Notes under the pieces: model-generated
Told to the model about the DNA's origin: nothing
Database searches by the model: none
Seen by the model: only the letters and a program-made list of their open reading frames with translations
Assembly (NCBI GenBank): GCA_013152535.1
Contig: JAADGE010000033.1
Span: 1 to 35,558, forward strand
DNA length: 35,558 nucleotides
DNA from: Chlorobiota bacterium
GTDB lineage: Bacteria; Bacteroidota; Bacteroidia; Bacteroidales; JAADGE01
Direction: 5' to 3'
Translations under genes and position numbers: made by a program
Shown here: positions 7,166 through 25,615 of the stretch, piece after piece
Numbering within the stretch: position 1 is the first letter of the stretch
Layout: every line of letters begins with the position of its first letter

Positions 7166-7657
7166 TCAGTCTTTAGAGTTTTTTACTTTTTCCGTATCAA
7201 CGGATTCTATAAATTTTTTTAATTCTTCATGTGTAAAACTGCCTTCAATATTCATAACAACAAATTCATTATCATCTTCAATAAGCATTATAATTTCTGA
7301 AATTGAATTGTTTCTCTCACGTGCTTTAAAACTGATTTTACTGCCGCTGTCATTTATAATCATTACATCTTTATAATTGCTTTTCGGCAAATAATTATTT
7401 AATTCACTCAGAAGATCGGTATTGCTATTTTCTGCAATAAAGAAATTAAGATTATCAATATTTTTTAAAAGATGTTTCAAATCTTTATCTTCCTTTTTAA
7501 GAAATATTGAGAACAGACTTGTCGGTACCCGAAAACTTATTACGTTTTCATCATTTTTATGAGACTTGTAAAAGTCTTTGTAATCAATTGTGTTTTTTGA
7601 ATTTGCACAGGATATAAAAATCGCTGTTATTACAAATATACTTATTATCTTTTTCAT
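7166..7657 (-). CDS. DUF4252 lipoprotein
   Basis: 163 residues. A lipoprotein signal ends in IFISC (Cys17), followed by a polar region. The body follows the DUF4252 pattern of small exported Bacteroidota proteins: an initial FRVPTSLFSIFL segment, a central LNFFIAENS segment, LLSELNNYL, then alternating strands ending FVVMNIEGSFTHEELKKF. Function is unknown for the family, which is typically encoded beside ECF sigma factors. Last gene of the sigma operon, 5 bp after a second DUF4252 gene, with a terminator 41 bp further on. It is probably held at the outer or inner membrane facing the periplasm. Confidence 0.8.
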   Translation of the reverse strand: MKKIISIFVITAIFISCANSKNTIDYKDFYKSHKNDENVISFRVPTSLFSIFLKKEDKDLKHLLKNIDNLNFFIAENSNTDLLSELNNYLPKSNYKDVMIINDSGSKISFKARERNNSISEIIMLIEDDNEFVVMNIEGSFTHEELKKFIESVDTEKVKNSKD

Positions 7658-7662
7658 ATTTT

Positions 7663-8184
7663 TTATTTTTTGTCAATTTTTTCTAAATATTTAAAATCGT
7701 TTACATCCATCGTTTTTGATAGTTTTGCAATATTTTTCAGATTTATATCGCCTTCAAGCATAATCAGAACAGGATCTCCTTCGCCGTAAACAATCATAAG
7801 AAATTCGGAAATTTTGTCATTCTTTTTATTTATCAGAAAATTTACAGTTTGCTTGCCGTCTTTTACAATCATCAGTTGTTTGTAAATTGATTTCGGTAAG
7901 TTTTGTAATAATTCTTTATTGAACTTTATTGAATTTTTTGCATTCAGAGCTGAATCTAAAGTTAAAATTTTTATGGCATTTAATTTTGAGGTTATTTCGT
8001 GAAACTCTTTATCTTCTGTATCATTACTTATTTTGGCAAATAAGTCAAACATATATTTGGTTATGTAAACAGATGTGTATCCTTTTTGACCGGAATATTT
8101 ATTAAAGAATTTTACAGCCTGAGTTTCTTGTGCTGTTGTCCATATTGAAATGAGCATAAAGAATGCTATTGTTAAATGTTTCAT
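7663..8184 (-). CDS. DUF4252 secreted protein
   Basis: 173 residues with a type I signal peptide (MKHLTIAFFMLISIWTTAQ) and no lipobox, unlike its neighbour. The mature part has the same order of elements as the next gene: KYMFDLFAKI, the LNAIKILTLDS segment, LLQNLPKSIYKQLMIVKDG, and a final EFLMIVYGEGDPVLIMLEGDINLKNIAKL. The two proteins are therefore distant paralogs. Its ATG overlaps the stop of the anti-sigma-like gene as ATGA, so translation is coupled. Likely an envelope protein regulated by, or feeding back to, the sigma/anti-sigma pair; the activity is unknown. Confidence 0.8.
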   Translation of the reverse strand: MKHLTIAFFMLISIWTTAQETQAVKFFNKYSGQKGYTSVYITKYMFDLFAKISNDTEDKEFHEITSKLNAIKILTLDSALNAKNSIKFNKELLQNLPKSIYKQLMIVKDGKQTVNFLINKKNDKISEFLMIVYGEGDPVLIMLEGDINLKNIAKLSKTMDVNDFKYLEKIDKK

Positions 8185-8648
8185 TTTTCTCCTTTTTTAA
8201 TTAATTGTTCGATTTTGTTTAATTTGTTTAAATAATTCAGATTTTCGGTACCTGTATTTAAATTTTCAGAAATTCTGTATAATGCAAGTTTTGAGTATTT
8301 TTCGGCTTTCCTTTTTTCATAAATCGGTTTACCGTTTACGTAGGCATAAATAATTTTATTTTCCGATTTTGATTTTGAGAAAATTATGAATGCGGCAATT
8401 AAGATAACAGCAGCAATTCCGCTTAACCGGTATAATAATTTGTGTTTTGACTGATTTAACAGAACAGGTTTATTGAAAGTTTTTGATTGTTCTGTTTTAA
8501 TAAATTGAAAAAATGATTTAAGATAAATTAATTCCGGCGGAATATTTTTTGCTTCATTAAAGAAACGTGTTAATTCTTGTTCTTCCTGCAATGAAGTATT
8601 TCCTTCAAAATATTTATCGGTTAATTTTTTAATTTTTTGATAGTCCAT
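8181..8648 (-). CDS. Single-TM anti-sigma-like protein
   Basis: 155 residues. The N-terminal cytoplasmic part (MDYQKIKKLTDKYFEGNTSLQEEQELTRFF) has the short helical pattern of Bacteroidota anti-sigma factors (a threshold of elongated LTxxEexeLxxfl-like helices). A single membrane helix follows at about 72-90, with a periplasmic tail of 65 residues containing YAYVNGKPIYEKRKAEKY. It overlaps the sigma-factor gene by 20 bp and the next gene by 4 bp. Position right after an ECF sigma gene plus the one-TM topology support an anti-sigma role; the sequence alone is not decisive, and no zinc-binding (ZAS) motif is present. Confidence 0.65.
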   Translation of the reverse strand: MDYQKIKKLTDKYFEGNTSLQEEQELTRFFNEAKNIPPELIYLKSFFQFIKTEQSKTFNKPVLLNQSKHKLLYRLSGIAAVILIAAFIIFSKSKSENKIIYAYVNGKPIYEKRKAEKYSKLALYRISENLNTGTENLNYLNKLNKIEQLIKKGEK

Positions 8649-9141
8649 AATTTATTTTTTTCAGCAGGTTTTGTTTTACGCTTGCTCTTGCACGAGATAA
8701 ATTTACTCTGATATTATTTAAAGTTTCGCCGGTTATTTCTGATATTTCATTAAATTCATAACCTTCGATATCGCGTAAATGCATTATTATTCGTTGTTTT
8801 TCAGGTAAATTATTAATGATATTTTTAATTAATATCGACATTTCATTCGTATCATCTTCCGGTTCAATACTTGTGCTTGTCGTATGTATCGTATGTGTTG
8901 AATATTTAAGTTCAATTTTATTATGTTTTATTTTATCCAAGCAAAGATTTTTTACGGATTGCATAACAAAAGCATCGGTATTTTTGTAATTCGATATTTC
9001 GTTTCTGTTAACCCAAAGTTTTTCAAAAATATCCTGAGTGATATCTTCTGCGTCTTCGTTATTTTTTAATAACATTCTTGCAAATCTGTACACCTTATTT
9101 TTTAGTGAAACAATATTTGTGTTGAATTCTTTTCTTGTCAT
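8629..9141 (-). CDS. ECF-type RNA polymerase sigma factor
   Basis: 170 residues from the ATG at 9141. Region 2 is VYRFARMLLKNNEDAEDITQDIFEKLW with the following NTDAFVMQSVKNLCLDKIKHNK; region 4 is LPEKQRIIMHLRDIEGYEFNEISEITGETLNNIRVNLSRAR, the helix-turn-helix that contacts the -35 element. Length and two-domain build are those of ECF (group 4) sigma factors. A longer start at 9174 is possible but adds an unconserved hydrophobic stretch and overlaps a promoter-like element, so it is rejected. First gene of a four-gene unit with anti-sigma-like and two DUF4252 genes. It probably responds to an envelope cue; the cue is unknown. Confidence 0.93.
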   Translation of the reverse strand: MTRKEFNTNIVSLKNKVYRFARMLLKNNEDAEDITQDIFEKLWVNRNEISNYKNTDAFVMQSVKNLCLDKIKHNKIELKYSTHTIHTTSTSIEPEDDTNEMSILIKNIINNLPEKQRIIMHLRDIEGYEFNEISEITGETLNNIRVNLSRARASVKQNLLKKINYGLSKN

Positions 9142-9149
9142 TATATTGT

Positions 9150-9178
9150 TAAGACGACTAAACGATAAAAACATTACA
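9150..9178 (-). promoter_or_regulatory. Candidate ECF-type autoregulated promoter
   Basis: On the - strand TGTAAT (9178-9173), 16 bp, CGTCTTA (9156-9150). The GTAA-type -35, 16-bp spacer and CGTC-type -10 are typical of ECF promoters, suggesting that the sigma factor drives its own operon. The ATG follows only 8 bp later, so the transcript would be nearly leaderless; this keeps the call tentative. Confidence 0.35.
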
Positions 9179-9277
9179 AAAAAAAATAAAAAAATATCAG
9201 ATCGACACGAAAGGTTGACAATCAGTAGAATTTTGAGGAATAAATTTTGGAAATTGAAGCAAGAAAGGATATGAGAA

Positions 9278-10375
9278 TCAGATTCTTATTCCGATAAGAA
9301 TGACATCGTCGGTTTGTTCAAAATTATTTTTCCATTTATTAAAGAAACGTTCAATAATATCTTTTTGTTCTTTAAGATTTTTATTTTGAATATTAAGAAA
9401 CATATTTTTAAAACGTTTATTCATAAGCTTTTTACCTAATTTTCCTCCCATTTGGTCAACAAATCCGTCAGAAAACATATAAATTGTATCTCCTTTGTCA
9501 AGTTTTATATTTTGTGTTTTAAAGGGTTGAAATATAGGATGTAAGCCTATGTGCATTTTGTCGGGTTTTAAATGATATAAAATATGACTGTTCGAGTCTG
9601 TTATTGTATAATTCGTATTTTCAAAATTTGTAAGATTTTTTTTATTCTTAACGATAAAAATCGGATTTTTAGCACCCGAAAATTGAATTTCATTTGTTTT
9701 AGGATTTAGAATTATAATAGATAAATCAATTCCGGAAACGGAGATTGCATCTTCTGCATCTTGTTTTAAAGAAGTTATAACTTTATCTTTGAGTATGTCT
9801 AAAATTTCGCCTGATTTTAATTCTTTGTCGGTTTCATTAATAATATCATTGAGTGAAGAAATGCCGAGCACACTCATAAATGCACCGGGAACTCCATGTC
9901 CCGTGCAATCGCCGGCAACAATTACTGTTTTACCGTAATGTTGTGCAAACCAATAAAAATCTCCGCTGACAATATCTTTCGGTTTGTAAAAAATGAACCT
10001 GTCAAGAAATTCCGGAAGCTTGTTTTTGTCGGGTAAAATTGCTTCTTGAATACGACTTGCATAACGGATGCTTTGCATAATTTCATTATTTTGCAATTCT
10101 ATTTTTTCACGTTGCAGTTTATTGATTTCAAGTTGTTTTTCTATAAATTTGTTTAAATAATATTGTGTTTCAACAACAATTAAAAAACTTAAAACTAATG
10201 TAACATATTTTAAATATCGAGCGTGAAAAAGAATTAAAGGGTCATTAACATATTCCGGAACAGTCCAAGCAAAGAAAAATACAGTAAGAAAAAAGAAAAA
10301 TGAAAACAAAATTGTTTCAAGTATAACAAACTGATTTCTTGTAAGGTAGATAAACCCGAGAATTTTTATCTTCAT
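9278..10375 (-). CDS. Membrane-anchored SpoIIE/PP2C-type serine phosphatase
   Basis: 365 residues. Two membrane helices (about 18-38 and 56-74), a coiled-coil linker (about 78-100), then a SpoIIE-type phosphatase domain from about 103 to the end. Metal-binding motifs are intact: DIVSGDFYW (Asp139), AGDCTGHGVPGAFMS (Asp156), MFSDGFVDQMGG and the final QTDDVILIGI. SIRYASRIQEAILP just before the catalytic core is the usual entry to this domain. It dephosphorylates serine/threonine, classically on an anti-sigma-factor antagonist, but no STAS or RsbW-like partner is encoded here. There is no sensor domain apart from the short membrane part. It is divergent from the SH3 gene at 10476, separated by 100 bp. 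Confidence 0.9.
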   Translation of the reverse strand: MKIKILGFIYLTRNQFVILETILFSFFFFLTVFFFAWTVPEYVNDPLILFHARYLKYVTLVLSFLIVVETQYYLNKFIEKQLEINKLQREKIELQNNEIMQSIRYASRIQEAILPDKNKLPEFLDRFIFYKPKDIVSGDFYWFAQHYGKTVIVAGDCTGHGVPGAFMSVLGISSLNDIINETDKELKSGEILDILKDKVITSLKQDAEDAISVSGIDLSIIILNPKTNEIQFSGAKNPIFIVKNKKNLTNFENTNYTITDSNSHILYHLKPDKMHIGLHPIFQPFKTQNIKLDKGDTIYMFSDGFVDQMGGKLGKKLMNKRFKNMFLNIQNKNLKEQKDIIERFFNKWKNNFEQTDDVILIGIRI

Positions 10376-10475: not shown

Positions 10476-11387
10476 ATGAGAATATTTGATAAAATAAAAA
10501 ATAAAAAATTTAAAAAAGAGAATATTAAAACGCAAACTTTATTTATCGGCGGTATGCTTTTCGGAATTATTCCGTTTCTTTTTATTGTTTATTTATTGAT
10601 CGGACCTTTGGTTAAAGTAATAAAAAAGGATTTTTCATCCGACACGATGATGACAATTAGTGAAAATTTGCGCATTCGTTCCGATAAAGATAACAAGGCT
10701 TATGTCATCGGTTCTTATCCTTTCGGAACAAAAGTTGAAGTTTATAAAGTGTTTGATAATAATTGGGCCGAAGTTTCAATCGGCGATAAAAAAGGCTATA
10801 TGTCTTTTGAGTATTTAGTTCTGCCGGAAACATTTTATATTATTGAAGGTATGTTCGGGAATGACAATGCTAAAAAATTAATAGCATCAACAAAATACAG
10901 AAAAGCAATTTCAAATTATCTGAAATCTAATGATTATACAACAAAGATATCGAAAAGCGAACGTGAAAAATTATACGGTAAAAATTCTGAGAAAGAAATG
11001 TGGCAAATATATGCAGAATCTCCCAAATCTGAATTTAATTCTTTTTGTTATGGTGATTATAATGGTGATAATAAGAGAGATGCAGCATTTATTCTTACAA
11101 ATATTAAATCCGGTAAACGAAAGTTGATTGTTCTGGAAATTAATAATGACATCGCCGGAAGATACGGAAATTTAATCGGAGCAAAAGATTTGAATGAAGA
11201 TTATGTGTATATTAAGAACATTCCGAAACGAACTAAAATGATTATTGGGGACAGTTTGCAAAGGATTGATGTTGATGCCGTTTTACTTGGTGTAAACAGA
11301 TCAAAAAGTTTTAATGATGTCGATACTTTAATGATTTATAACGGCAGAGATTTTGATTATTTTCCGCAAATTATAAAAGAAAAATAA
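10476..11387 (+). CDS. Membrane protein with a bacterial SH3 domain
   Basis: 303 residues. A basic N-terminus precedes one membrane helix at about 22-45, so the remainder should face the periplasm. Residues 59-115 form an SH3b-like domain: ENLRIRSDKDNKAYVIGSYPFGTKVEV followed by NWAEVSIGDKKGYMSFEYL; such domains often bind cell-wall peptides. The C-terminal half contains an FCYGDYNGDNKRDAAFIL stretch that resembles the acidic Asp/Asn-rich loops of FG-GAP or VCBS repeats. No catalytic motif is seen. It stands alone between a divergent phosphatase and a convergent CoA-transferase operon, with its own promoter. The role is unknown; envelope sensing or wall binding is a guess from the domains. 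Confidence 0.7.
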   Translation: MRIFDKIKNKKFKKENIKTQTLFIGGMLFGIIPFLFIVYLLIGPLVKVIKKDFSSDTMMTISENLRIRSDKDNKAYVIGSYPFGTKVEVYKVFDNNWAEVSIGDKKGYMSFEYLVLPETFYIIEGMFGNDNAKKLIASTKYRKAISNYLKSNDYTTKISKSEREKLYGKNSEKEMWQIYAESPKSEFNSFCYGDYNGDNKRDAAFILTNIKSGKRKLIVLEINNDIAGRYGNLIGAKDLNEDYVYIKNIPKRTKMIIGDSLQRIDVDAVLLGVNRSKSFNDVDTLMIYNGRDFDYFPQIIKEK

Positions 11388-11419
11388 GTTTTTGAATTTA
11401 TACTGATACAAATAAAAAA

Positions 11420-11565
11420 TTTATAAATGAATCAGCTCCGAAAATTCTGAAAGCTGTGAAAGTATGAATATTGTCCCAAGCCTAAGATGTTGTATGTCAA
11501 CATATTGCACCCTGTTGAATTAATGCTGATTCCTGAAAACAAAGTTTTCGGAGCGAGTTTATAAA
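11420..11565. repeat. Inverted-repeat element between convergent genes
   Basis: A 10-bp perfect inverted repeat, GCTCCGAAAA (11435-11444) and TTTTCGGAGC (11545-11554), is bounded on both sides by the octamer TTTATAAA (11420-11427 and 11558-11565). Inside are further hairpins: ATGTTG/CAACAT (11487-11503), CAGCT/AGCTG near 11434-11456, and GAAAAC-AAA-GTTTTC near 11534-11549. The whole could be a structured 3' untranslated region, a terminator complex or a small non-autonomous element. It has no coding potential that I could see. Confidence 0.5.
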
Positions 11566-15703: not shown

Positions 15704-18217
15704 ATGAGTAAAAACCTTGTTATTGTTGAGTCCCCGGCAAAAGCCAAAACGATTGAAAAATTTCTCGGGAAAGATTATAAAGTAAAATCAAGTTTCGGAC
15801 ATGTTCGAGATTTAGCAAAAAAAAATTTCGGTATTGATGTTGAACACAATTTCAAACCTGAATATATTATTCTTCCCGATAAGAAAAAAATTATTACGGA
15901 ATTACGAAAAGAAGTTAAATCAGCCGATAAAGTTCTTCTTGCTTCCGATGAAGATCGTGAAGGAGAAGCTATTGCATGGCATTTGTATGAAGTTCTGAAA
16001 TTAAAAGATAAAAATACGGAACGAATTGTGTTTAATGAAATCACAAAAGAAGCAATCAAGAATGCTGTTGATAATCCCGGTGAAATAAATTACGATTTAG
16101 TTAATGCACAGCAAGCCCGTCGTATTTTAGATCGATTGGTGGGATTTGAATTATCCTCGGTTTTATGGAGAAAGGTGCAGTCAAAGTTGTCTGCCGGAAG
16201 GGTACAATCTGTTGCTGTTCGTTTGTTAGTTGAACGAGAACGTGAAATAAATGTATTTAAACCTGAAGTGTTTTTTAAAGTAACGGCAGAATTTTTATCT
16301 CCGGAAAATAATCAAATATTTAAAGCTGATCTGTCACAAAAATTAAAATCAGAAAAAGAAGTTCGAGATTTTTTTAACAGTTTAAATACTCCCGGATATT
16401 TTGTTGCCGATATTGAAAAGAAACCAAGCAAACGAACACCGTCAGCACCGTTTACAACATCATCACTTCAGCAGGAAGCAAGCAGAAAATTCGGATTTCC
16501 GGTAGGAAAAACAATGCGAATTGCTCAAAAATTGTATGAAGCAGGTTTTATTACATATATGAGAACCGATTCCGTCAATCTTTCATCATTAGCATTAAAT
16601 ACAGCAAAAGATACTGTTATTAAGGAGTTCGGTGAAAAATTTTATAAAAAAAGAGTTTTTAAAACCAAGTCTAAAAATGCACAAGAAGCCCACGAAGCAA
16701 TTCGTCCTGCTTATATTCAGAATAAATCAATCAGCGGTACTTCGGAAGAAGAACGTTTGTACGATTTAATAAGAAAAAGAACATTAGCGTCGCAAATGGC
16801 TGATGCTGCTTTTGAACAAACAAAAGTTACGATTAAAATTAAAAATTCCGAATATAAATTTATTGCTTCCGGTGAAGTCTTATTATTTCCGGGATTTTTG
16901 AAAATTTATTCTGAAAAAAATGCAGATTCTTTATTGCCGCCTTTAAATACAAATGATATTTTAGAAGCAAATTTTATTGAAGCAACAGAACAATTCAGCA
17001 AATACCCGCCCAGATATTCCGAAGCTGCTTTAGTGAAACAACTGGAGGACAAAGGAATCGGAAGACCTTCAACATATGCACCTACAATTTCAACAATTGA
17101 AAAGAGAGGGTATATGATAAAGGAGAGTCGCCAGGGTATTGAAAAAGAAGTTTTACATATCAGATATAAGAACAACAAAATTTCTGAAAAAACTGAACGA
17201 AAAATATTCGGCGCCGAAAAGAATAAATTATTTCCGACCGATATTGCTATGGTTGTAACCGATTTTTTGAAAGATAATTTTCAGAATATCATAGATTATA
17301 ATTTTACGGCTAATGTTGAAGAGCAATTTGACCAAATTGCAAACGGAAAAATTATTTGGCATAAAATGATTGAAACTTTTTATAATAAATTTCATAAAAA
17401 AGTAGAAAATACCATTGAACATGCGGACAGAAATGCAGGAGAACGTATTTTAGGGGACGATCCGGAAACAGGAAAACAAGTGTCTGTCAGATTAGGGAAA
17501 TACGGACCTGTTGTTCAATTGGGACTTCCGGATGAAGAAGCTAAAATAAAACCGAAATTTGCAAGTTTAAGAAAAGATCAGCATATTGAAAATATTACGC
17601 TTGAAGAGGCATTAGAATTATTGAAAAATTCAGGTAACGGCAGATTGCTCGGGAAAGATCCGGTAAGCGGAAAAAATATATATGTTCGATTTGCACGCTA
17701 TGGTGCTGTAGCTCAATTAGGTGATGCCGATGATAAAGAAAAACCGAAATATGCCGGATTATTAAAAGGAATGACCATAGATACCGTAAGCTTGGAAGAA
17801 GTTCTTGAATTATTTAAGTTGCCGCGTGATGTCGGTGAATTTGAAGGAAAAAAAGTGGTTGCTGCTGTCGGCAGATTCGGACCGTACATTCGGCATGATT
17901 CTAAATTCATTTCATTAAAAAAAACAGATGACCCTTTGTCAATTACTATCGGAAGAGCTGAAGAATTAATACTTGAAAAACGTGAAAAGGATAAAAAACG
18001 CCTGATAAAAGAATTTAAAGAAGACGATACTCTGAAAATTATAAAAGACAGATGGGGAAAACCGTGTGTTTTCTATAATAAAAAGTATATCAGACTTTCA
18101 GCAAATGCAAAACCCGAAGACTTAACTTATGAAGATTGTTTGAAAATTATTGAAAAAGAATTCGGAACACTTGATAAAAATAAAAAAAAGAAAACAACAC
18201 GTAAAACAAAAAAATAA
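15704..18217 (+). CDS. topA: DNA topoisomerase I
   Basis: 837 residues. The Toprim domain opens with VESPAKAKTIEKFLG (Glu9) and has the acidic metal site SDEDREGEAIAWH (81-93). The catalytic tyrosine is Tyr285 in ITYMRTDSVNLSS, and KLSAGRVQSVAVRLLVEREREI is the family hinge. The C-terminus lacks the zinc-finger cysteines of the E. coli enzyme and instead carries at least three Topo_C repeats, e.g. LGDDPETGKQVSVRLGKYGP, LGKDPVSGKNIYVRFARYGA and FEGKKVVAAVGRFGPYIRH, followed by a lysine-rich tail. It relaxes negative supercoils by a 5'-phosphotyrosine intermediate. The next gene starts on the base after its stop. Conserved position upstream of the gliding/type IX genes is common in this phylum. 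Confidence 0.96.
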   Translation: MSKNLVIVESPAKAKTIEKFLGKDYKVKSSFGHVRDLAKKNFGIDVEHNFKPEYIILPDKKKIITELRKEVKSADKVLLASDEDREGEAIAWHLYEVLKLKDKNTERIVFNEITKEAIKNAVDNPGEINYDLVNAQQARRILDRLVGFELSSVLWRKVQSKLSAGRVQSVAVRLLVEREREINVFKPEVFFKVTAEFLSPENNQIFKADLSQKLKSEKEVRDFFNSLNTPGYFVADIEKKPSKRTPSAPFTTSSLQQEASRKFGFPVGKTMRIAQKLYEAGFITYMRTDSVNLSSLALNTAKDTVIKEFGEKFYKKRVFKTKSKNAQEAHEAIRPAYIQNKSISGTSEEERLYDLIRKRTLASQMADAAFEQTKVTIKIKNSEYKFIASGEVLLFPGFLKIYSEKNADSLLPPLNTNDILEANFIEATEQFSKYPPRYSEAALVKQLEDKGIGRPSTYAPTISTIEKRGYMIKESRQGIEKEVLHIRYKNNKISEKTERKIFGAEKNKLFPTDIAMVVTDFLKDNFQNIIDYNFTANVEEQFDQIANGKIIWHKMIETFYNKFHKKVENTIEHADRNAGERILGDDPETGKQVSVRLGKYGPVVQLGLPDEEAKIKPKFASLRKDQHIENITLEEALELLKNSGNGRLLGKDPVSGKNIYVRFARYGAVAQLGDADDKEKPKYAGLLKGMTIDTVSLEEVLELFKLPRDVGEFEGKKVVAAVGRFGPYIRHDSKFISLKKTDDPLSITIGRAEELILEKREKDKKRLIKEFKEDDTLKIIKDRWGKPCVFYNKKYIRLSANAKPEDLTYEDCLKIIEKEFGTLDKNKKKKTTRKTKK

Positions 18218-19384
18218 ATGTCGGAATTTAAATTACACGATTTCTGCACTCCGTTTAATAAAGATTCAATAAACCTTCCTTTAGTACATAATAAAGAAGA
18301 TTTAATGTTTGCTCATATTCTGTTTCATACAGATAATGCAAAATCGGATTATTTGAAAAATTCTGATATTGCAATTATAGGTGTTCCCGAAGAAAGAAAT
18401 TCGGAAAATAAAGGATGTTCTGCCGCACCGGACAGAATAAGGGAAGAACTTTATAAGTTGTATGCACCGTCAAAAATCAAAATTACGGATTTAGGGAATT
18501 TAAAAAAAGGAAAAAATGTAAAAGATACCTATTTTGCACTGACAGAAGTTGTTTTTGAATGTTTTAAAAATGAAACCGCCGTTATTATTATAGGAGGCAG
18601 CAACGATTTAATTGCTCCGATTTGTACGGCTTATGCACAAGGAAAAAAACAATTTAATTTATGTGTAATTGATTCTGTTTTTAATCTTGATGACAATCCG
18701 GAACTTATAAGTTCTCAAAATTATCTGTCATATATATTAAATAAAAACAAAAATATTTTTTCATATACAAATATCGGTTATCAAACTTATTATAATTCAT
18801 CGGAAGAAATTAATTTTATCAAATCCAATTTTGAAGCTGTTCGATTAGGAATTGCAAGAACTGATTTATTCGGGAATGAACCTTTTATTCGAGATGCAGA
18901 TTTTGTATGCGTAAACGGAAGAAGTATAAAAATGACCGATGCCCCGGCAAACATAAAACCTTCGGTTCACGGATTTTACGGAGAGGAAATTTGTCAATTG
19001 GCAAAATATGCCGGTATAAGTGATAATGTTTCGGCTTTCGGATTATTTGATATAAATCCTAAATATGATAAAAGAAATCAAACTGCAGCTCTGGGAGCTC
19101 AAATTATTTGGCACTTTTTAGAATCATTTTATCAAAGGAAAGGTGAAAATGATAAAAATATTATTAAAAAATATAAGAAATATATTGTAAACATCGATGA
19201 TGTCTCTGAAAAATTAGTTTTTTATAAAAGTCAAAAAACCGATCGTTGGTGGGTTGAAGTTCCTTATCATATCAAAGACAAAGAAAAAGTATATTTATTA
19301 TCATGTACAAAAGACGATTATATTAAGGCCGGAAACAATGAAATTCCCGAACGCTGGTGGAATTTTTTTCAAAAATTAAATTAA
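18218..19384 (+). CDS. Arginase/formimidoylglutamase-fold protein lacking the metal ligands
   Basis: 388 residues. The N-terminal block IAIIGVPEERNSENKGCSAAPDRIREELYKLY matches the ureohydrolase fold, and the order of later blocks fits too. But the Mn2+ ligands are gone: GGDH is GGSND (126-130), DAHxD is DSVFN (152-156), and the SxDxD block reads VNGRSIKMTDAP (232-243). Hydrolysis of arginine, agmatine or formimidoylglutamate is therefore unlikely; it is probably a pseudoenzyme with a scaffold or binding role. It is usually annotated formimidoylglutamase by homology. Its ATG follows the topA stop with no gap, so translation is coupled, and porP starts 140 bp downstream. That it serves type IX secretion is an inference from position. 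Confidence 0.75.
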   Translation: MSEFKLHDFCTPFNKDSINLPLVHNKEDLMFAHILFHTDNAKSDYLKNSDIAIIGVPEERNSENKGCSAAPDRIREELYKLYAPSKIKITDLGNLKKGKNVKDTYFALTEVVFECFKNETAVIIIGGSNDLIAPICTAYAQGKKQFNLCVIDSVFNLDDNPELISSQNYLSYILNKNKNIFSYTNIGYQTYYNSSEEINFIKSNFEAVRLGIARTDLFGNEPFIRDADFVCVNGRSIKMTDAPANIKPSVHGFYGEEICQLAKYAGISDNVSAFGLFDINPKYDKRNQTAALGAQIIWHFLESFYQRKGENDKNIIKKYKKYIVNIDDVSEKLVFYKSQKTDRWWVEVPYHIKDKEKVYLLSCTKDDYIKAGNNEIPERWWNFFQKLN

Positions 19385-19524: not shown

Positions 19525-20463
19525 ATGAAGAAAATATATCTATACATCTTATTTTCGATATTATCAATAGAAATATTTTCACAGCAAGACCCTCAGTTTG
19601 CACAAAATGCTGATAATTTGTTATTTACAAACCCTGCTTTTGCAGGAATGACAGACGGAATTTGTGCTTCTGCAATTAACAGGCAACAGTGGGTAGGTTT
19701 TGAAGGAGCACCGGTAACAACAATGGCGAGTGTTCATACAGGAGTAAAGTTGTTCGGGATTCAAGGAGGAATAGGTCTTTCAATAGTTGATGACAGATTT
19801 GAATTTGAAAAAAAATTTCAGGCAAAAGCGGCGTTTTCTTACCATAAAAAAGTAGGACTCGGTACTTTAGGAATAGGAGTTGAAAGCGGAATAATAAATA
19901 ATGATTTAAACGGAAACTGGAAATATCCGGATCCGAACGGGAGTGAGGACCAATTAATTCCTCAGGGGCAAGTAAGAAAAATAGTTCTTGATTTAGGTTT
20001 AGGAGTTTTTTATAAAGTCGGTGAAAGGTTTTATGCAGGAGTTTCGATTTCGCATATTAATCAACCGGATATTAATTACCCGAAAGTACCTGCGGCATCA
20101 TTTTTGCGTCGTCATTATTATGCCACAGCAGGCTATGATTTTAGGTTAATGAACAGTCCGATAGAATTGCAACCTTCTGTTTTTGTTAAGTTTGACGGAA
20201 CAAAAATGCAGAGCAGTGCTAATCTTACGGCTTTATACAATAAAAAATTCTCAGTCGGCGTTTCATACAGAAACCGAGAAGCATTTATACCGATGGTCGG
20301 TATTCATTTATTGAACGGCTTAAAAATCGGTTATGCTTATGAAGTTCCTTTAACAAGAATGATTAGCGTAAGCAAAGGAAGCCATGAAGTTTTTGTCGGA
20401 TATTGTTTCGACTTTTGGGGAGCAAACACAAATTATAAATATAAAAGTATACTCTATTTATAG
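19525..20463 (+). CDS. porP: PorP/SprF family type IX secretion outer-membrane protein
   Basis: 312 residues with a signal peptide (cleavage near IEIFSQ|QD). The mature start, QQDPQFAQNADNLLFTNPAFAG, is the hallmark of the PorP/SprF family, and the rest alternates as an amphipathic 14-strand-like barrel (GIQGGIGLSIVDD, LGTLGIGVESGIINND, FYAGVSISHINQPD), ending in FDFWGANTNYKYKSILYL. PorP proteins bind PorE/PorK-type partners and adhesins at the outer membrane. First gene of the porP-gldKLMN run; gldK follows after 33 bp. The 140 bp upstream is AT-rich; a TATTTTG at 19511-19517 would give an almost leaderless message and is a weak promoter candidate. Confidence 0.93.
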   Translation: MKKIYLYILFSILSIEIFSQQDPQFAQNADNLLFTNPAFAGMTDGICASAINRQQWVGFEGAPVTTMASVHTGVKLFGIQGGIGLSIVDDRFEFEKKFQAKAAFSYHKKVGLGTLGIGVESGIINNDLNGNWKYPDPNGSEDQLIPQGQVRKIVLDLGLGVFYKVGERFYAGVSISHINQPDINYPKVPAASFLRRHYYATAGYDFRLMNSPIELQPSVFVKFDGTKMQSSANLTALYNKKFSVGVSYRNREAFIPMVGIHLLNGLKIGYAYEVPLTRMISVSKGSHEVFVGYCFDFWGANTNYKYKSILYL

Positions 20464-20496: not shown

Positions 20497-21912
20497 ATGA
20501 AAAAATTGATTTTTTTATCATTTGTATTAGTTGCATTGATTTTGGGAAGTTGCGGAGACAAGGGCTCTCACGGTGAGTTAGTCGGAGTCGGAGATGCAGG
20601 AGACTGGTTTGAACCAAATCCTTACGGAATGGTTTTTATTCCGACGGGAAGTTTCAATATGGGACTTAACGACCAGGATATTACTTATGCCAATACGCAA
20701 GAAACTAAAACTGTTTCAATTGATCCGTTTTGGATGGATGAAACCGAAATTACTAATAGTGAATATAAACAATTTGTTTATTGGGTAAGAGATTCAATTG
20801 CAAAAAGATTATTGGTTGCTGCTGATTTCGATGAGTTTAAGAAAGAAGTTGATGAAGATAAGATGGCTGCCGTTGATCCGGACTATGATCCCGATGATCC
20901 GGAAACCTGCCTTCTTAATTGGGACATTGATATTGATTGGAATCGACCGGACGAAGATTTTCAAACAGCATTAAGCGAATTATATCTTCCCGTACAAGAA
21001 AGATTTTATAAACAAAAAGAGATTGATTCAAGAAAATTAATTTATAGTTATGAATGGGTTGATTTAAAACAGGCTGCAAAAAGAAGTAATCAATATTATT
21101 ATAACGAAGATTTTACAGGCGGCGAATATAAAGGTACAGTTGTTAACAGCAAAGGTGAAACTGTTCCCGTAAAAGACAGATCAGCATTTATTATGCACGC
21201 TAAAATTAATGTATATCCTGATACCTTAGTATGGATGAGAGATTATACTTATTCTTATAACGAACCTTATGCAAGAAGATATTTCTGGCACAGTGCATAC
21301 AACAATTACCCTGTTGTCGGGGTAAACTGGAAACAAGCGAATGCTTTTTGTATTTGGAGAACAGATTTAATGAGAAACTATCAAAAATCTCAGGGAGAAC
21401 CGGTATATCAAGATTATAGATTACCTTCCGAAGCTGAATGGGAATATGCTGCAAGAGGCGGTTTAGCTTTATCAATGTATCCTTGGGGCGGAATATATAC
21501 TCGTAATGTACATGGTTGTTTTATTGCAAATTTTAAACCTTTAAGAGGCAGATACGGTGACGACGGTGCTAACAAAACTTTAGCCGTGAAAAAATATGCT
21601 CCGAATGAATATCATTTATATGATATGGCCGGAAATGTTGCGGAATGGACGAGTAATGCTTATGATGAATCAGCATACAGTTACACGCATGATTTAAATC
21701 CGGATTATCGATATAATGCACGTGCAGAAGATCCTCCGGCATTAAAACGAAAAGTTATCAGAGGCGGTTCTTGGAAAGATGTAGCTTATTTTCTTCAAGT
21801 AGGTGCTCGCACCTATGAATATCAAGATTCTGCTAAATCTTACATCGGTTTCAGATGTGTTCGTTCATACATGGGCGGTGATGAATATGCTTGGGATGCA
21901 AATAATTTTTAG
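20497..21912 (+). CDS. gldK: GldK/PorK type IX secretion ring lipoprotein
   Basis: 471 residues. Lipoprotein signal with lipobox LGSC (Cys19). The body is a formylglycine-generating-enzyme (SUMF1) fold: MVFIPTGSFNMG, DPFWMDETEITNSEYKQFV, an insert of about 150 residues, PVVGVNWKQANAFCIWRT, DYRLPSEAEWEYAARGG, NVAEWTSNAYDE, RKVIRGGSWKD and GFRCVRS. The copper-binding cysteine pair of active FGE enzymes is not evident, as is usual for GldK. With GldN it builds the large periplasmic ring under the outer membrane. A long hairpin separates it from gldL, 195 bp downstream. Confidence 0.96.
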   Translation: MKKLIFLSFVLVALILGSCGDKGSHGELVGVGDAGDWFEPNPYGMVFIPTGSFNMGLNDQDITYANTQETKTVSIDPFWMDETEITNSEYKQFVYWVRDSIAKRLLVAADFDEFKKEVDEDKMAAVDPDYDPDDPETCLLNWDIDIDWNRPDEDFQTALSELYLPVQERFYKQKEIDSRKLIYSYEWVDLKQAAKRSNQYYYNEDFTGGEYKGTVVNSKGETVPVKDRSAFIMHAKINVYPDTLVWMRDYTYSYNEPYARRYFWHSAYNNYPVVGVNWKQANAFCIWRTDLMRNYQKSQGEPVYQDYRLPSEAEWEYAARGGLALSMYPWGGIYTRNVHGCFIANFKPLRGRYGDDGANKTLAVKKYAPNEYHLYDMAGNVAEWTSNAYDESAYSYTHDLNPDYRYNARAEDPPALKRKVIRGGSWKDVAYFLQVGARTYEYQDSAKSYIGFRCVRSYMGGDEYAWDANNF

Positions 21913-22107: not shown

Positions 22108-22989
22108 ATGGCTAATTTCACAGAAAGTCACACGTTTAAAAATTTTATGAAGTACTTATACGGATGGGGTGCTTCTGTTGTTTTAATCGGTGCATTATTT
22201 AAATTAACTCACTGGCCCGGTGCAAATGCTATGTTAACAGTAGGTTTAATTGTTGAAGCTGTTATTTTCTTTTTCTCAGCTTTTGAACCTTTACATGAAG
22301 AATTGGATTGGACATTAGTGTATCCGCAATTAGCCGGTTTAGACGGTGTTGTTGATGTTATGGGAGAAAAAGATTCCTTACCTGCTACACCGAATGCTAT
22401 CCTTAAATTCAATGAAATGATTGAAAAAGCCGGAGATACAAATCTTTTTGAGAAATTCGGTTCGGGTATTGAAAAATTAAATACTCAAGTTACACAAATG
22501 ACGGAAATTTCAGATGCCGGAGTTGCAACAAATGAATTTACCGATAATATGAAAAATGCAGCTTCTGCTGTTTCTTCTTTAGCTGACACATATACTAAAT
22601 CTTCTGAATCTGTCAGTTATTCAACTGAAAGTTTATCAGATGCATTTAACGGAACTTCACAAAAAGTTACTAAAGGCGGAGAAGAATTTGCCGAAGCTTA
22701 TCAAAGATTAACAAGTTCAATGGATTTGGATTTTTCTTCGTTAAAAGAAGGAAATTCCGAATACAATACTCATATCGGCAGTTTGAATAAAAATTTATCT
22801 GCTTTGAATGCTATTTTTGAATTACAACTGAATGAAACCGATCTTGAACAAATGATGTCAGATTTACAAGGTTCTGTAGAACATTCTAAAAAATACAATA
22901 CAGAAATTACCAAATTAGGACAAAAACTGGAAGCTCTTAATACTATATACGGAAATATGCTTAGTGCTATGAATGTAAGTATGGATTAA
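22108..22989 (+). CDS. gldL: GldL/PorL inner-membrane motor protein
   Basis: 293 residues. Two N-terminal membrane helices (about 15-33 and 41-59) joined by the conserved THWPGAN turn. Polar residues in the membrane, Lys32, His35, Glu50 and Glu60 with Tyr18, lie where GldL family residues needed for proton coupling are found; Glu50 is the best candidate for the proton site (inference from family). The rest is a helical cytoplasmic domain with GSGIEKLNTQVTQM and SSLADTYTKSSESVS segments, ending NTIYGNMLSAMNVSMD. It forms a pentamer around two GldM helices and drives secretion from the proton motive force. gldM starts 53 bp on. Confidence 0.96.
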   Translation: MANFTESHTFKNFMKYLYGWGASVVLIGALFKLTHWPGANAMLTVGLIVEAVIFFFSAFEPLHEELDWTLVYPQLAGLDGVVDVMGEKDSLPATPNAILKFNEMIEKAGDTNLFEKFGSGIEKLNTQVTQMTEISDAGVATNEFTDNMKNAASAVSSLADTYTKSSESVSYSTESLSDAFNGTSQKVTKGGEEFAEAYQRLTSSMDLDFSSLKEGNSEYNTHIGSLNKNLSALNAIFELQLNETDLEQMMSDLQGSVEHSKKYNTEITKLGQKLEALNTIYGNMLSAMNVSMD

Positions 22990-23042: not shown

Positions 23043-24620
23043 ATGAGCGGACACGGACAACTGTCTCCGAGGCAGAAGATGATAAACATGATGTATCTTA
23101 TTTTAACGGCATTGCTTGCAATGAACGTGTCAGCTGAGATACTTAATGCATTTGTCTTGGTAAACGATAGTTTAACTAAAACTGAAAAAGGTATAAATTC
23201 TAAAAACCAAGAAGTTTATACAAAATTTAATGAAAAATTTCAAACAAATCCAAAAAAAGTAAAACCTTGGAAAGATAAAGCCGATAAGGTAGGGGCTTTA
23301 AGTACTGAATTGGTTAATGAAATTTCTAATATTCAAAAAGAAATGTTATTGGCTGATGACGAGGATTATCCAAAATTCCTAAAAGACGGCAGCGGAGTTA
23401 TTAAGAATAAAAAAGATAAAGAAACTCCTACCAGAGTGATGCTTGAAGGAAAGAAACCGAATAAAGCAACGCAATTAAAAAATAAGATTAATGAGTTTGT
23501 AAAAAATGTTGAAACTGTATTAAGCGGTGTGCCTAAAGCAGATGCAATTCTAAATAGTATGAAAGCTAATTTAAGTACTGCTGATGTTGTGGGTGAAAGC
23601 GGAGAAAAAAAATCATGGCAATTAGCTAATTTTGATCAACTCCCCTTAGTTGCTGCTATTACAATGTTAACAAAATTTAAAACAGACATTTTAAATGTTG
23701 AATCTGATGCTATTAATACTCTGTTAACTCAAGTAGATGCAAAGTCATACAAATTCACAAGTTTAAACGCTATTGTGAAAACAGATAAAGGTTATGTATT
23801 ATCCGGCGAAACATTTAAAGCTCAAATTTTTGTCGGTGCTTCGGATACAACTCAAAATCCGGAAATTATTCTTGATAACGGACAAAAAATTGATTCTTTT
23901 GATAGTCAGAAAAGAGGAATTTTTTCTGTTAAAACCGGTGCACCGGGAGTATATATATTAAAAGGAAAAATTGTTGTCAACAGACCCGGAACAACTTTAA
24001 AAGATTCTTTTCCTTTTTCATATCCTTATCAGGTAGCTGTTCCGAGTATTAGTGTATCTCCCGATAAAATGAATGTATTTTATATAGGAGTTGATAACCC
24101 TGTTACAGTTACGGCTGCAGGAACACCTGCAGATCAAATTCATGCAACGGTAGCCGGAGGTTCTATGATTTCCAGAGGCAATTCAAAATATACCGTCAGA
24201 GTTAAAAGACCCGGAAAAACAAGGGTTACAGTTTCAGCTAACGGAAGAGCATTAGGGTCTAAAGAATTTCGTGTAAAAACATTACCGGATCCTGTTACAA
24301 CTCTTGGTGCAAAGGGTACTTCTTATTACAAAGGCGGGCTTTGCCCGAAATCAACTTTATTGGCTTTGAGCGGTGTTAATGCTACTATGGAGAATTTTGA
24401 TTTTGAACTCCGTTATCGAATTACACAATTTGTTGTTACATGTAATATTGGTGGTTTTGATGAAAGTGCAAAATCAAATAATAGAAGATTTACGCCGCAA
24501 CAAAAAGCTGTTATCAGAAAAGCACGAAGGAAATCACGTGTGATTATAGAAAATGTAAAAGCTGTGGGACCCGATAAGCGAACACGAAAAATTAATGACC
24601 TGGTTTTAAAACTAAGATAA
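23043..24620 (+). CDS. gldM: GldM/PorM motor-shaft protein
   Basis: 525 residues, normal length. The N-terminal signature SGHGQLSPRQKMINMMYLIL leads into one membrane helix (about 15-35) that is inserted into the GldL pentamer. The periplasmic part is a helical D1 (residues 40-225, with EKFQTNPKKVKPWKDKADKV) and beta-rich D2-D4 domains: GYVLSGETFKAQIFVGAS, YPYQVAVPSISVSPDKMNVFYIGVDNPVTV, and RPGKTRVTVSANG. The end (FVVTCNIGGFDESAKSNNRRFTPQQKAVIRKA) is the conserved C-terminal domain thought to contact the GldK/GldN ring. GldM transmits motor motion to the outer membrane. Confidence 0.96.
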   Translation: MSGHGQLSPRQKMINMMYLILTALLAMNVSAEILNAFVLVNDSLTKTEKGINSKNQEVYTKFNEKFQTNPKKVKPWKDKADKVGALSTELVNEISNIQKEMLLADDEDYPKFLKDGSGVIKNKKDKETPTRVMLEGKKPNKATQLKNKINEFVKNVETVLSGVPKADAILNSMKANLSTADVVGESGEKKSWQLANFDQLPLVAAITMLTKFKTDILNVESDAINTLLTQVDAKSYKFTSLNAIVKTDKGYVLSGETFKAQIFVGASDTTQNPEIILDNGQKIDSFDSQKRGIFSVKTGAPGVYILKGKIVVNRPGTTLKDSFPFSYPYQVAVPSISVSPDKMNVFYIGVDNPVTVTAAGTPADQIHATVAGGSMISRGNSKYTVRVKRPGKTRVTVSANGRALGSKEFRVKTLPDPVTTLGAKGTSYYKGGLCPKSTLLALSGVNATMENFDFELRYRITQFVVTCNIGGFDESAKSNNRRFTPQQKAVIRKARRKSRVIIENVKAVGPDKRTRKINDLVLKLR

Positions 24621-24705: not shown

Positions 24706-25548
24706 ATGAAAAAGTTATTGTTTTTATTCATCGGTTTATTCTTAATCTCCGGCATTTTTACAAAAACAGAAGCCCAAAGTGTTGACGGTGTTTATACGAA
24801 ACATATTACTGCGAAAAGGAAACCTATTCCTTATCAATACATTAGAGAAGCTGATGTTATGTGGTCGAAGGTTTTGTGGAGAAGAGTAAACTTAACGGAG
24901 AAAAGAAATTTATCTTTGTATTATCCTACTGAAGAAATGGACGACAGAAAAAGTCTTATTCAGTTAATGATGTGGGGTATTAAAAACAAAAGTTTAACAC
25001 CTTTTGCATCCGATGAGTTTTTAACACAATACACTTTAAACGAAATTGATGAGCGTTTTGGTGCCGGAATTGATACAACTTATGATATTGATCCCGAAAC
25101 CGGGGAAACTATCCCTTTAATTACAAAAAAACCGGCAGATATCAGTGAAGTAAAACAATTACTGATTAAAGAACGTTGGATTTTTGATAAACAAAGATCT
25201 GTTATGGAACCCAGAATAATCGGTTTATGTCCTATTAGGGAATATTACAGAGATGATGATTTAGATCACGAAGCAGTACATTATAAAAAATTATTTTGGG
25301 TATTTTTCCCGGAAGCAAGGAATATTTTTGCAAGTCAAGCTATTTACAATCCTAAGAATCAGTCTCAAGAAATTTCTTTTGATGATTATTTTGTAAAAAG
25401 AATGTTTGACGGTTATATTTTCAAAGAATCCAATGTTTATGATAACAGAAGAATTGCTTTGTATGCTACCGGCTTAGATGTATTACTTGAATCGGAAAGA
25501 ATTAAAAATGAAGTATTTAATTATGAACACGATTTATGGGAATTCTAA
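24706..25548 (+). CDS. gldN: GldN/PorN type IX secretion ring protein
   Basis: 280 residues with a signal peptide (MKKLLFLFIGLFLISGIFTKTEAQS). Family blocks include READVMWSKVLWRRVNLTEKRN, the FASDEFLT segment, KQLLIKERWIFDKQRSVMEPRIIGLCPI and LFWVFFPEARNIFASQAIYNP. It binds GldK to form the periplasmic ring and touches GldM. It is the last gene of the run; a strong bidirectional terminator starts 18 bp after its stop. The 85-bp gap before it holds a small TGAGG-TTTT-CCTCA hairpin (24677-24690), of no known meaning. Confidence 0.95.
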   Translation: MKKLLFLFIGLFLISGIFTKTEAQSVDGVYTKHITAKRKPIPYQYIREADVMWSKVLWRRVNLTEKRNLSLYYPTEEMDDRKSLIQLMMWGIKNKSLTPFASDEFLTQYTLNEIDERFGAGIDTTYDIDPETGETIPLITKKPADISEVKQLLIKERWIFDKQRSVMEPRIIGLCPIREYYRDDDLDHEAVHYKKLFWVFFPEARNIFASQAIYNPKNQSQEISFDDYFVKRMFDGYIFKESNVYDNRRIALYATGLDVLLESERIKNEVFNYEHDLWEF

Positions 25549-25565
25549 AAAGAATTAATAATAAT

Positions 25566-25601
25566 AAAAAAACCTCAATATTTATTTATTGAGGTTTTTT
25601 T
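25566..25601. terminator. Bidirectional terminator between gldN and manC
   Basis: A 15-bp perfect stem, AAAAAAACCTCAATA (25566-25580) and TATTGAGGTTTTTTT (25587-25601), with a 6-nt loop. T runs on both strands make it work in both directions; it sits between the stops of convergent genes. Confidence 0.93.
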
Positions 25602-25615
25602 ATTTTGCTTTTATA

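Follow-up and report, generated by a model that had tools for sequence, protein, structure and literature searches.

Between topA and the genes of a type IX secretion system (T9SS) lies a gene for a protein of the arginase fold, and its place among such neighbours raises the question of what it does there. The window, by which we mean the whole stretch of DNA analysed, is 35,558 nucleotides long and comes from a Chlorobiota bacterium. It had been predicted from this DNA alone that the protein has lost its metal site but kept the fold, that it is a conserved pseudoenzyme and perhaps an accessory of secretion or gliding, and that its usual name, formimidoylglutamase, is probably wrong. The features of the window that are needed below are:

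15704..18217, + strand: topA, type I DNA topoisomerase, whose stop adjoins the start of the arginase-fold gene (Pfam/NCBIfam)
18218..19384, + strand: gene for the metal-free arginase-fold protein, 388 aa (ORF, Pfam, NCBIfam, family alignment)
18593..18607, + strand: metal block 1, residues 126-130, GGSND (canonical GGxH; H129 to N; alignment)
18671..18685, + strand: metal block 2, residues 152-156, DSVFN (canonical DxHxD; H154 to V, D156 to N; alignment)
18911..18946, + strand: metal block 3, residues 232-243, VNGRSIKMTDAP (canonical DxD; D233 to N, D235 to R; K238; alignment)
19145..19381, + strand: family-specific C-terminal module, residues about 310-388, FYKS..RWW.EVP...C..DY..A...E.P.RWW...KL (alignment)
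19525..20463, + strand: T9SS membrane protein of the porP/sprF family, 140 bp downstream of the arginase-fold gene (Pfam/NCBIfam)
20497..21912, + strand: gldK/porK, T9SS ring lipoprotein (Pfam/NCBIfam)
22108..22989, + strand: gldL, T9SS motor protein (Pfam/NCBIfam)
23043..24620, + strand: gldM, T9SS motor protein (Pfam/NCBIfam)
24706..25548, + strand: gldN, T9SS ring subunit (Pfam/NCBIfam)
25563..25604, no strand: AT-rich inverted repeat of 18 pairs with T runs on both strands, resembling a bidirectional terminator (consensus scan)

The ATG of the arginase-fold gene directly abuts the topA TAA (18215-18217), and the coordinates and Pfam/NCBIfam matches agree with the predicted order, in which the gene begins right after topA and precedes porP-gldKLMN. 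In a motif scan, no promoter motif of the Bacteroidota type was found in the window's own gap before porP. Across 53 gaps before porP, the -7 motif of this promoter type occurs in 12 (mean 6.3 and maximum 13 in shuffles) and the two-box motif in one. In the window, the protein would most likely be made from the topA message. At the other end of the cluster, the terminator-like repeat separates gldN from a converging nucleotidyltransferase gene.

Loss of the metal site in a conserved family

In the window protein, the ligand positions H129, D152, H154, D156, D233 and D235 are occupied by N, D, V, N, N and R, respectively. All three metal blocks are altered, as predicted, and a single ligand out of six (D152) is retained. 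The prediction had called for an alignment of homologues, and this alignment extends the loss to the family: among 105 members (the window protein, L031-L033, L182 and the proteins of 100 fetched loci), none keeps more than four of the six ligands, and the two histidines are never found together. Histidine is present at position 129 in 12 of the 105 members (glutamine in 70) and at position 154 in only one (lysine or arginine in 54), and aspartate is present at position 235 in only one (serine in 54). Aspartate is kept at positions 152, 156 and 233 in 97, 81 and 91 members, respectively; moreover, position 238 is lysine or arginine in 100 members, and position 241 is aspartate or glutamate in 100. 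Most relatives retain the three aspartates (D152, D156, D233), and the window protein has decayed further than is typical, agreeing at 63 of 76 conserved columns compared with a family median of 71. Given these persisting aspartates, relatives outside the window's own lineage may bind one metal.

Since H129, H154 and D235 are lost almost family-wide, the loss of ligands is not a product of chance or sequencing error. A sequencing error or a pseudogene was also rejected on other grounds: the frame is open, a relative that is 92% identical to the window protein (L031) agrees with it at each of the six ligand positions, two further relatives (L032, L033) also lack most ligands, L033 retaining D152 and D233, and dN/dS is 0.11 (0.111 between the window protein and L031, and 0.108 between it and L033). 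We did not accept the change of the first histidine to asparagine as a sole sign of inactivity, since the formimidoylglutamase of PDB entry 3m1r carries N at this position (GGDNS).

The loss of ligands goes together with the C-terminal module, which was scored as present when at least three of eight signature residues were found. The comparison had 168 rows in all, consisting of family members and canonical ureohydrolases, and left out L219, L225, L229 and L231, in which at least two ligand columns are gapped, and L232, a fragment at a contig edge. All 133 rows with the module have 0-4 ligands (132 distinct, as G253 is counted twice, as L182 and L218), and all 30 rows without it have five or six.

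In a sample with one genome per species, the family is matched in 187 of 198 Bacteroidia genomes, 185 of them by protein search (E ≤1e-3) and the divergent G061 and G098 by the family profile. The three nearest named relatives of the window protein are from Bacteroidetes/Bacteroidales MAGs. Class genomes without a match are G032, G073, G107, G139 and G170 in the window's order and G017, G025, G052, G130, G161 and G183 outside it; G025 is a genome of 0.5 Mb, and G052, G161 and G183 are 72, 82 and 56% complete. In a sample of the order, the protein search matched 44 of 60 genomes. The profile matched four of the remaining 16, none of them reaching the C-terminal module; of these four, L270 and L272 were read and proved to be canonical enzymes. 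In one family of the order, all 81 genomes are without a pseudo-arginase, three of them showing partial matches. Among 89 genomes elsewhere in the phylum, 43 were matched, none past profile position 324, and a module-bearing match was found in none. No relative was found among viral contigs. The family was probably inherited vertically across Bacteroidia.

Loss of the binuclear site combined with purifying selection is what marks a metal-free arginase pseudoenzyme, and both are found here. Judged by the family-wide loss of ligands, the occurrence in 187 of 198 genomes and the dN/dS, the window protein belongs to a conserved family of predicted pseudoenzymes, in line with what was proposed.

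Relation to formimidoylglutamase and the C-terminal module

The ureohydrolase fold appears to be retained, as the prediction had it. Pfam Arginase (PF00491) matches residues 50-300 of the window protein with 64.5 bits (gathering 22), and the family profile matches formimidoylglutamase 3m1r over positions 47-303 (E 3e-20). This match across the whole domain places the family in the ureohydrolase (arginase) superfamily, and the best profile relatives among solved structures are formimidoylglutamases (3m1r, 1xfk, 4mxr). Since an AlphaFold2 model of the window protein from 4 sequences reached a mean pLDDT of 34, what we say of the former metal pocket is drawn from alignment columns alone.

The arginase-fold domain, with its best profile match among solved structures, is what the family has in common with HutG. 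In contrast, the window protein scores 72.7 bits with the NCBIfam model for formimidoylglutamase (HutG, TIGR01227), far under the cut-off of 229.15, and the family differs further in its lost ligands, its extra C-terminal module and its separate clade. We therefore rejected an identity with HutG, and on the evidence of sequence the name formimidoylglutamase is wrong for this family, as had been suspected. The HutG model is over its cut-off in only 8 of 149 class genomes, and these eight matches (L183-L190) are canonical enzymes that do not carry the module. As to histidine degradation, the direct neighbours of the gene in the window are topA and T9SS genes, and the search of its genome for hut genes covered hutG. 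Metabolic reconstructions that count the pseudo-arginase as a step of histidine degradation would err.

The family profile is based on an alignment of 68 members with a mean column identity of 47%. Invariant in all 68 are G93, Q189, E221, G252, W298, F335, W345, Y368 and P377, of which F335, W345, Y368 and P377 lie in the C-terminal module, and two cysteines, C259 and C363, are near-invariant (99%). No credible Pfam match was found for the module, the best having E values of 0.05 and 0.1, far under the cut-offs. Even where divergence is greatest, in L267, L268 and L269, whose metal blocks are hard to discern, the module can be recognised; two of these members, from G061/G098, are shortened (L268, 315 aa; L269, 308 aa), keeping the module with the metal blocks largely gone. 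We suggest that the function resides in the C-terminal module, with the arginase domain as a scaffold. In a quick maximum-likelihood tree, one branch (support 100, length 1.56) separates 47 rows of the family from 30 canonical ones, which places the family as one clade of single origin.

Among the matches listed, we found no description of a pseudo-arginase family in the open-licence literature, and no paper there was found to pair formimidoylglutamase with gldK. For arginase and gliding motility, the matches listed all concern protozoa or protozoan infection, and for arginase and type IX secretion there is only a Prevotella genome paper, to go by the parts of these sources that were available. 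The result is a class-wide family of predicted pseudoenzymes with an undescribed C-terminal module, which would be a broad natural case of the arginase fold turned to another use.

Gene neighbourhood and co-occurrence with secretion genes

We compared the gene neighbourhood in 100 loci spread over families, 90 from the listed matches of the class search, the weakest of which are not among them, and 10 from the order search. In 64 of the 100 loci topA adjoins the pseudo-arginase gene (in L153 another gene lies between), and in 57 gldK is found at most 5 kb away on the same strand. Both neighbours are present in 54 loci, topA alone in 10, gldK alone in 3 and neither in 33, with a contig end near in 2, 1 and 3 of the last three groups, respectively. 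The linkage to gldK that had been expected is real and common, being seen in 57 loci, and 33 loci have neither neighbour. One of the loci with topA alone, near a contig end (L075), still shows porP, and one of those with neither (L083) has a weaker gldK-like gene and a porP-like gene, both on the opposite strand at a distance of about 5-6 kb.

The pseudo-arginase gene starts a median of 15 bp after the topA stop (n=64), compared with a median gap of 140 bp between the gene and porP (n=53); five loci that lack porP have gldK 70-385 bp further on. By this measure, the secretion genes are less closely coupled to the gene than topA is. On the far side of topA, genes that we named by reading their sequences as MiaB-like, sigma-54-regulator-like and LptE-like are found in 34, 30 and 25 loci, respectively. 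Since unrelated genes are also kept beyond topA, the conservation of gene order is not specific to secretion. L107 and L099 represent a flavobacterial arrangement, topA, pseudo-arginase and gldK without porP (in L107 followed through as gldKLMN), and GldM of L107 matches that of PDB 6ys8, which we take to be the F. johnsoniae protein, end to end with 1010 bits.

Two loci keep topA beside secretion genes without the pseudo-arginase. In L178 (around 11341-11500) the topA stop codon and the porP start codon share a single base (TGATG), which is most simply read as an apparent clean deletion that left topA and the secretion genes coupled; in L168 topA adjoins gldK, with neither pseudo-arginase nor porP between. 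As a separate observation, of the 33 loci with neither topA nor gldK nearby, 13 have a gene read as NAD-dependent-epimerase-like on the other strand next to the pseudo-arginase gene, mostly directly upstream of it (e.g. L090, L091, L102, L104, L105, L123); L112, L114 and L136, with no ORF for the gene, were left out of this neighbour table.

In the phylum sample, GldK is over its cut-off in 29 of 118 genomes, and module-bearing family matches (position ≥377) are found in the same 29, a coincidence that amounts to one class. In the order sample, GldK is over the cut-off in 57 of 60 genomes, and 13 of these 57 have no pseudo-arginase. To judge by these 13 genomes, the T9SS as such does not seem to need the protein, and on the same ground we rejected a component always needed by type IX secretion. 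The gene follows GldJ more closely than GldK: when GldJ is called by a TIGR03524 match of at least 290 bits, the pseudo-arginase is found in 43 of 49 GldJ-positive genomes of the order, compared with 1 of 11 GldJ-negative ones; the lone GldJ-negative carrier (G249) is an assembly that is 85% complete. GldJ is present without the pseudo-arginase in 6 of the 49, and also in G017 and G161 (82% complete).

A tree of GldK was built from 56 rows, 15 of them without the pseudo-arginase gene, using every second of the other class loci and counting divergent members found by the profile as present. Eight of the gene-less rows form one clade (support 99), and all eight genomes are also without GldJ, which may reflect one joint loss. 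GldK of L172, from this clade, matches PDB chains named PorK, presumably the P. gingivalis nomenclature, with 611 bits. The other seven gene-less rows are scattered on the tree, with L176-L179 close to the window's own lineage. In G170 (C1:2263397-2263999), a GldJ/GldK-like match was seen inside a frame that stays open over 2885 codons, which may be a fusion or no more than a long open frame.

We also compared lineage rates between the pseudo-arginase and its neighbours as residuals over 39 loci, with no phylogenetic control. The correlation is 0.49 with topA (permutation p 0.001), 0.44 with porP, 0.00 with gldK, 0.18 with gldL, -0.34 with gldM and 0.10 with gldN. In a set of 19 loci, r is 0.35 for topA (p 0.07) and 0.20 for porP.

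A protein that may act by binding

The fold, the loss of ligands, the module, the single clade, the selection and the distribution are established at the level of sequence. We infer a cytoplasmic location, as the window protein has no strongly hydrophobic stretch, its best mean hydropathy over 19 residues being 1.41 compared with 2.23 in the window's GldL, although a 19-residue stretch with hydropathy ≥1.6 is found in 8 of the 105 members. We argue that the protein is probably a ureohydrolase-fold protein of the cytoplasm that has lost its catalytic activity, is of single origin and vertical descent in Bacteroidia, and works by binding. The simplest route would lead from an active ureohydrolase ancestor through loss of the two-metal site and gain of a C-terminal module of about 80 residues. 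The old metal site could persist as a metal-free pocket, in which the basic residue at 238, joined in about half of the members by the one at 154, would pair with aspartates 152, 156 and 233, and such a salt-bridge cluster could stand in for the metals. The C-terminal module would be the main contact surface, and the protein would hydrolyse neither formimidoylglutamate nor agmatine nor arginine.

Hai et al. reportedly described in 2015 an arginase-like protein of Trypanosoma brucei that lacks a manganese cluster, which would be, like our family, an arginase fold whose binuclear site was lost in nature. To our knowledge, that protein is eukaryotic and has neither a conserved operon nor such a C-terminal module. 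Another parallel is MetCb of metformin hydrolase (PDB 8snf and others), which, in the part of the source available (PMC11271267), is a metal-free arginase-fold pseudoenzyme acting through a partner. The family profile aligns to MetCb only as far as position 309, with no sign of the C-terminal module there. By this precedent from the same superfamily, the window protein could be the non-catalytic subunit of a heteromeric ureohydrolase, as MetCb is with MetCa, but MetCb pairs with a catalytic ureohydrolase, whereas protein and HutG-model searches of the window's genome, which is 98% complete, match only the pseudo-arginase gene, and we regard such a subunit as highly improbable. An enzyme with an altered, metal-independent chemistry through conserved Asp, Arg and Cys would account for the conservation of the remodelled pocket (D233 in 91, basic 238 in 100 and D/E 241 in 100 of the 105 members) and of C259 and C363. 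Yet several members, the window protein among them, have lost pocket residues but keep the C-terminal module, as is expected if the module and not the pocket carries the function, and we consider altered chemistry quite unlikely. A partner or regulator of topoisomerase I, co-translated with topA and acting in DNA topology, would agree with the short gap to topA, with the excess of loci having topA alone (10, two near contig ends) over those having gldK alone (3, one near a contig end), and with the rate residuals of topA in both sets; we find it unlikely, as 36 of the 100 loci are not beside topA, L168 and L178 keep topA next to secretion genes without the pseudo-arginase, and neighbours in an operon need not interact.

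If the protein works by binding, as we prefer, its target may have nothing to do with secretion. A housekeeping protein of the cytoplasm, whose position between topA and porP is ancestral and was kept by slow rearrangement, is an explanation that we entertain tentatively. It would fit with the conservation of the protein in the 33 loci with neither neighbour, only three of which are near a contig end, with the MiaB-like, sigma-54-regulator-like and LptE-like genes kept beyond topA, and with L178 and L168; it does not sit well with a family range equal to that of GldK at the phylum level, or with the joint absence with GldJ. These two patterns would instead be expected of an accessory of the T9SS or of gliding, which from the cytoplasm would dock on the motor in the inner membrane (e.g. 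the cytoplasmic part of GldL) or tune the assembly of a GldJ-type machine. Such an accessory is a reasonable hypothesis among others, though less likely than not: it is consistent with gldK near on the same strand in 57 loci, 54 of them with topA too, with the same 29 of 118 phylum genomes carrying GldK and the module-bearing family, with 43 of 49 GldJ-positive compared with 1 of 11 GldJ-negative genomes carrying the gene, and with the eight rows of one GldK clade that have neither GldJ nor the gene. However, the phylum and GldJ patterns each come down to about one clade and not to many independent events, the lineage rates of the protein follow porP and not gldK, gldL, gldM or gldN, and L178 looks like a clean deletion. 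Although the pseudo-arginase shares its neighbourhood with PorP, GldK, GldL, GldM and GldN, it differs from these core proteins in not always being kept with the machine, as seen in the GldK-positive genomes of the order that do not have it, in the six GldJ-positive ones, and in G017 and G161. Moreover, we know of no gliding screen in F. johnsoniae that reported a pseudo-arginase. The evidence opposes only the strong form, in which type IX secretion needs the pseudo-arginase. A more specific conjecture, which we regard as somewhat less likely still, is that the protein is one cytoplasmic part of the GldJ-type (gliding-capable) T9SS, that its module binds the motor, and that it was lost with GldJ in the PorK-type clade, which secretes in its absence. 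If a role in secretion or gliding is true, the protein would be a component on the cytoplasmic side that has escaped notice.

A minor observation from elsewhere in the window, at 7166-8184 (- strand) with 8629-10375 (- strand), is that two adjoining DUF4252 proteins come after genes for a sigma-70-family (ECF-like) sigma factor and a SpoIIE-type phosphatase.
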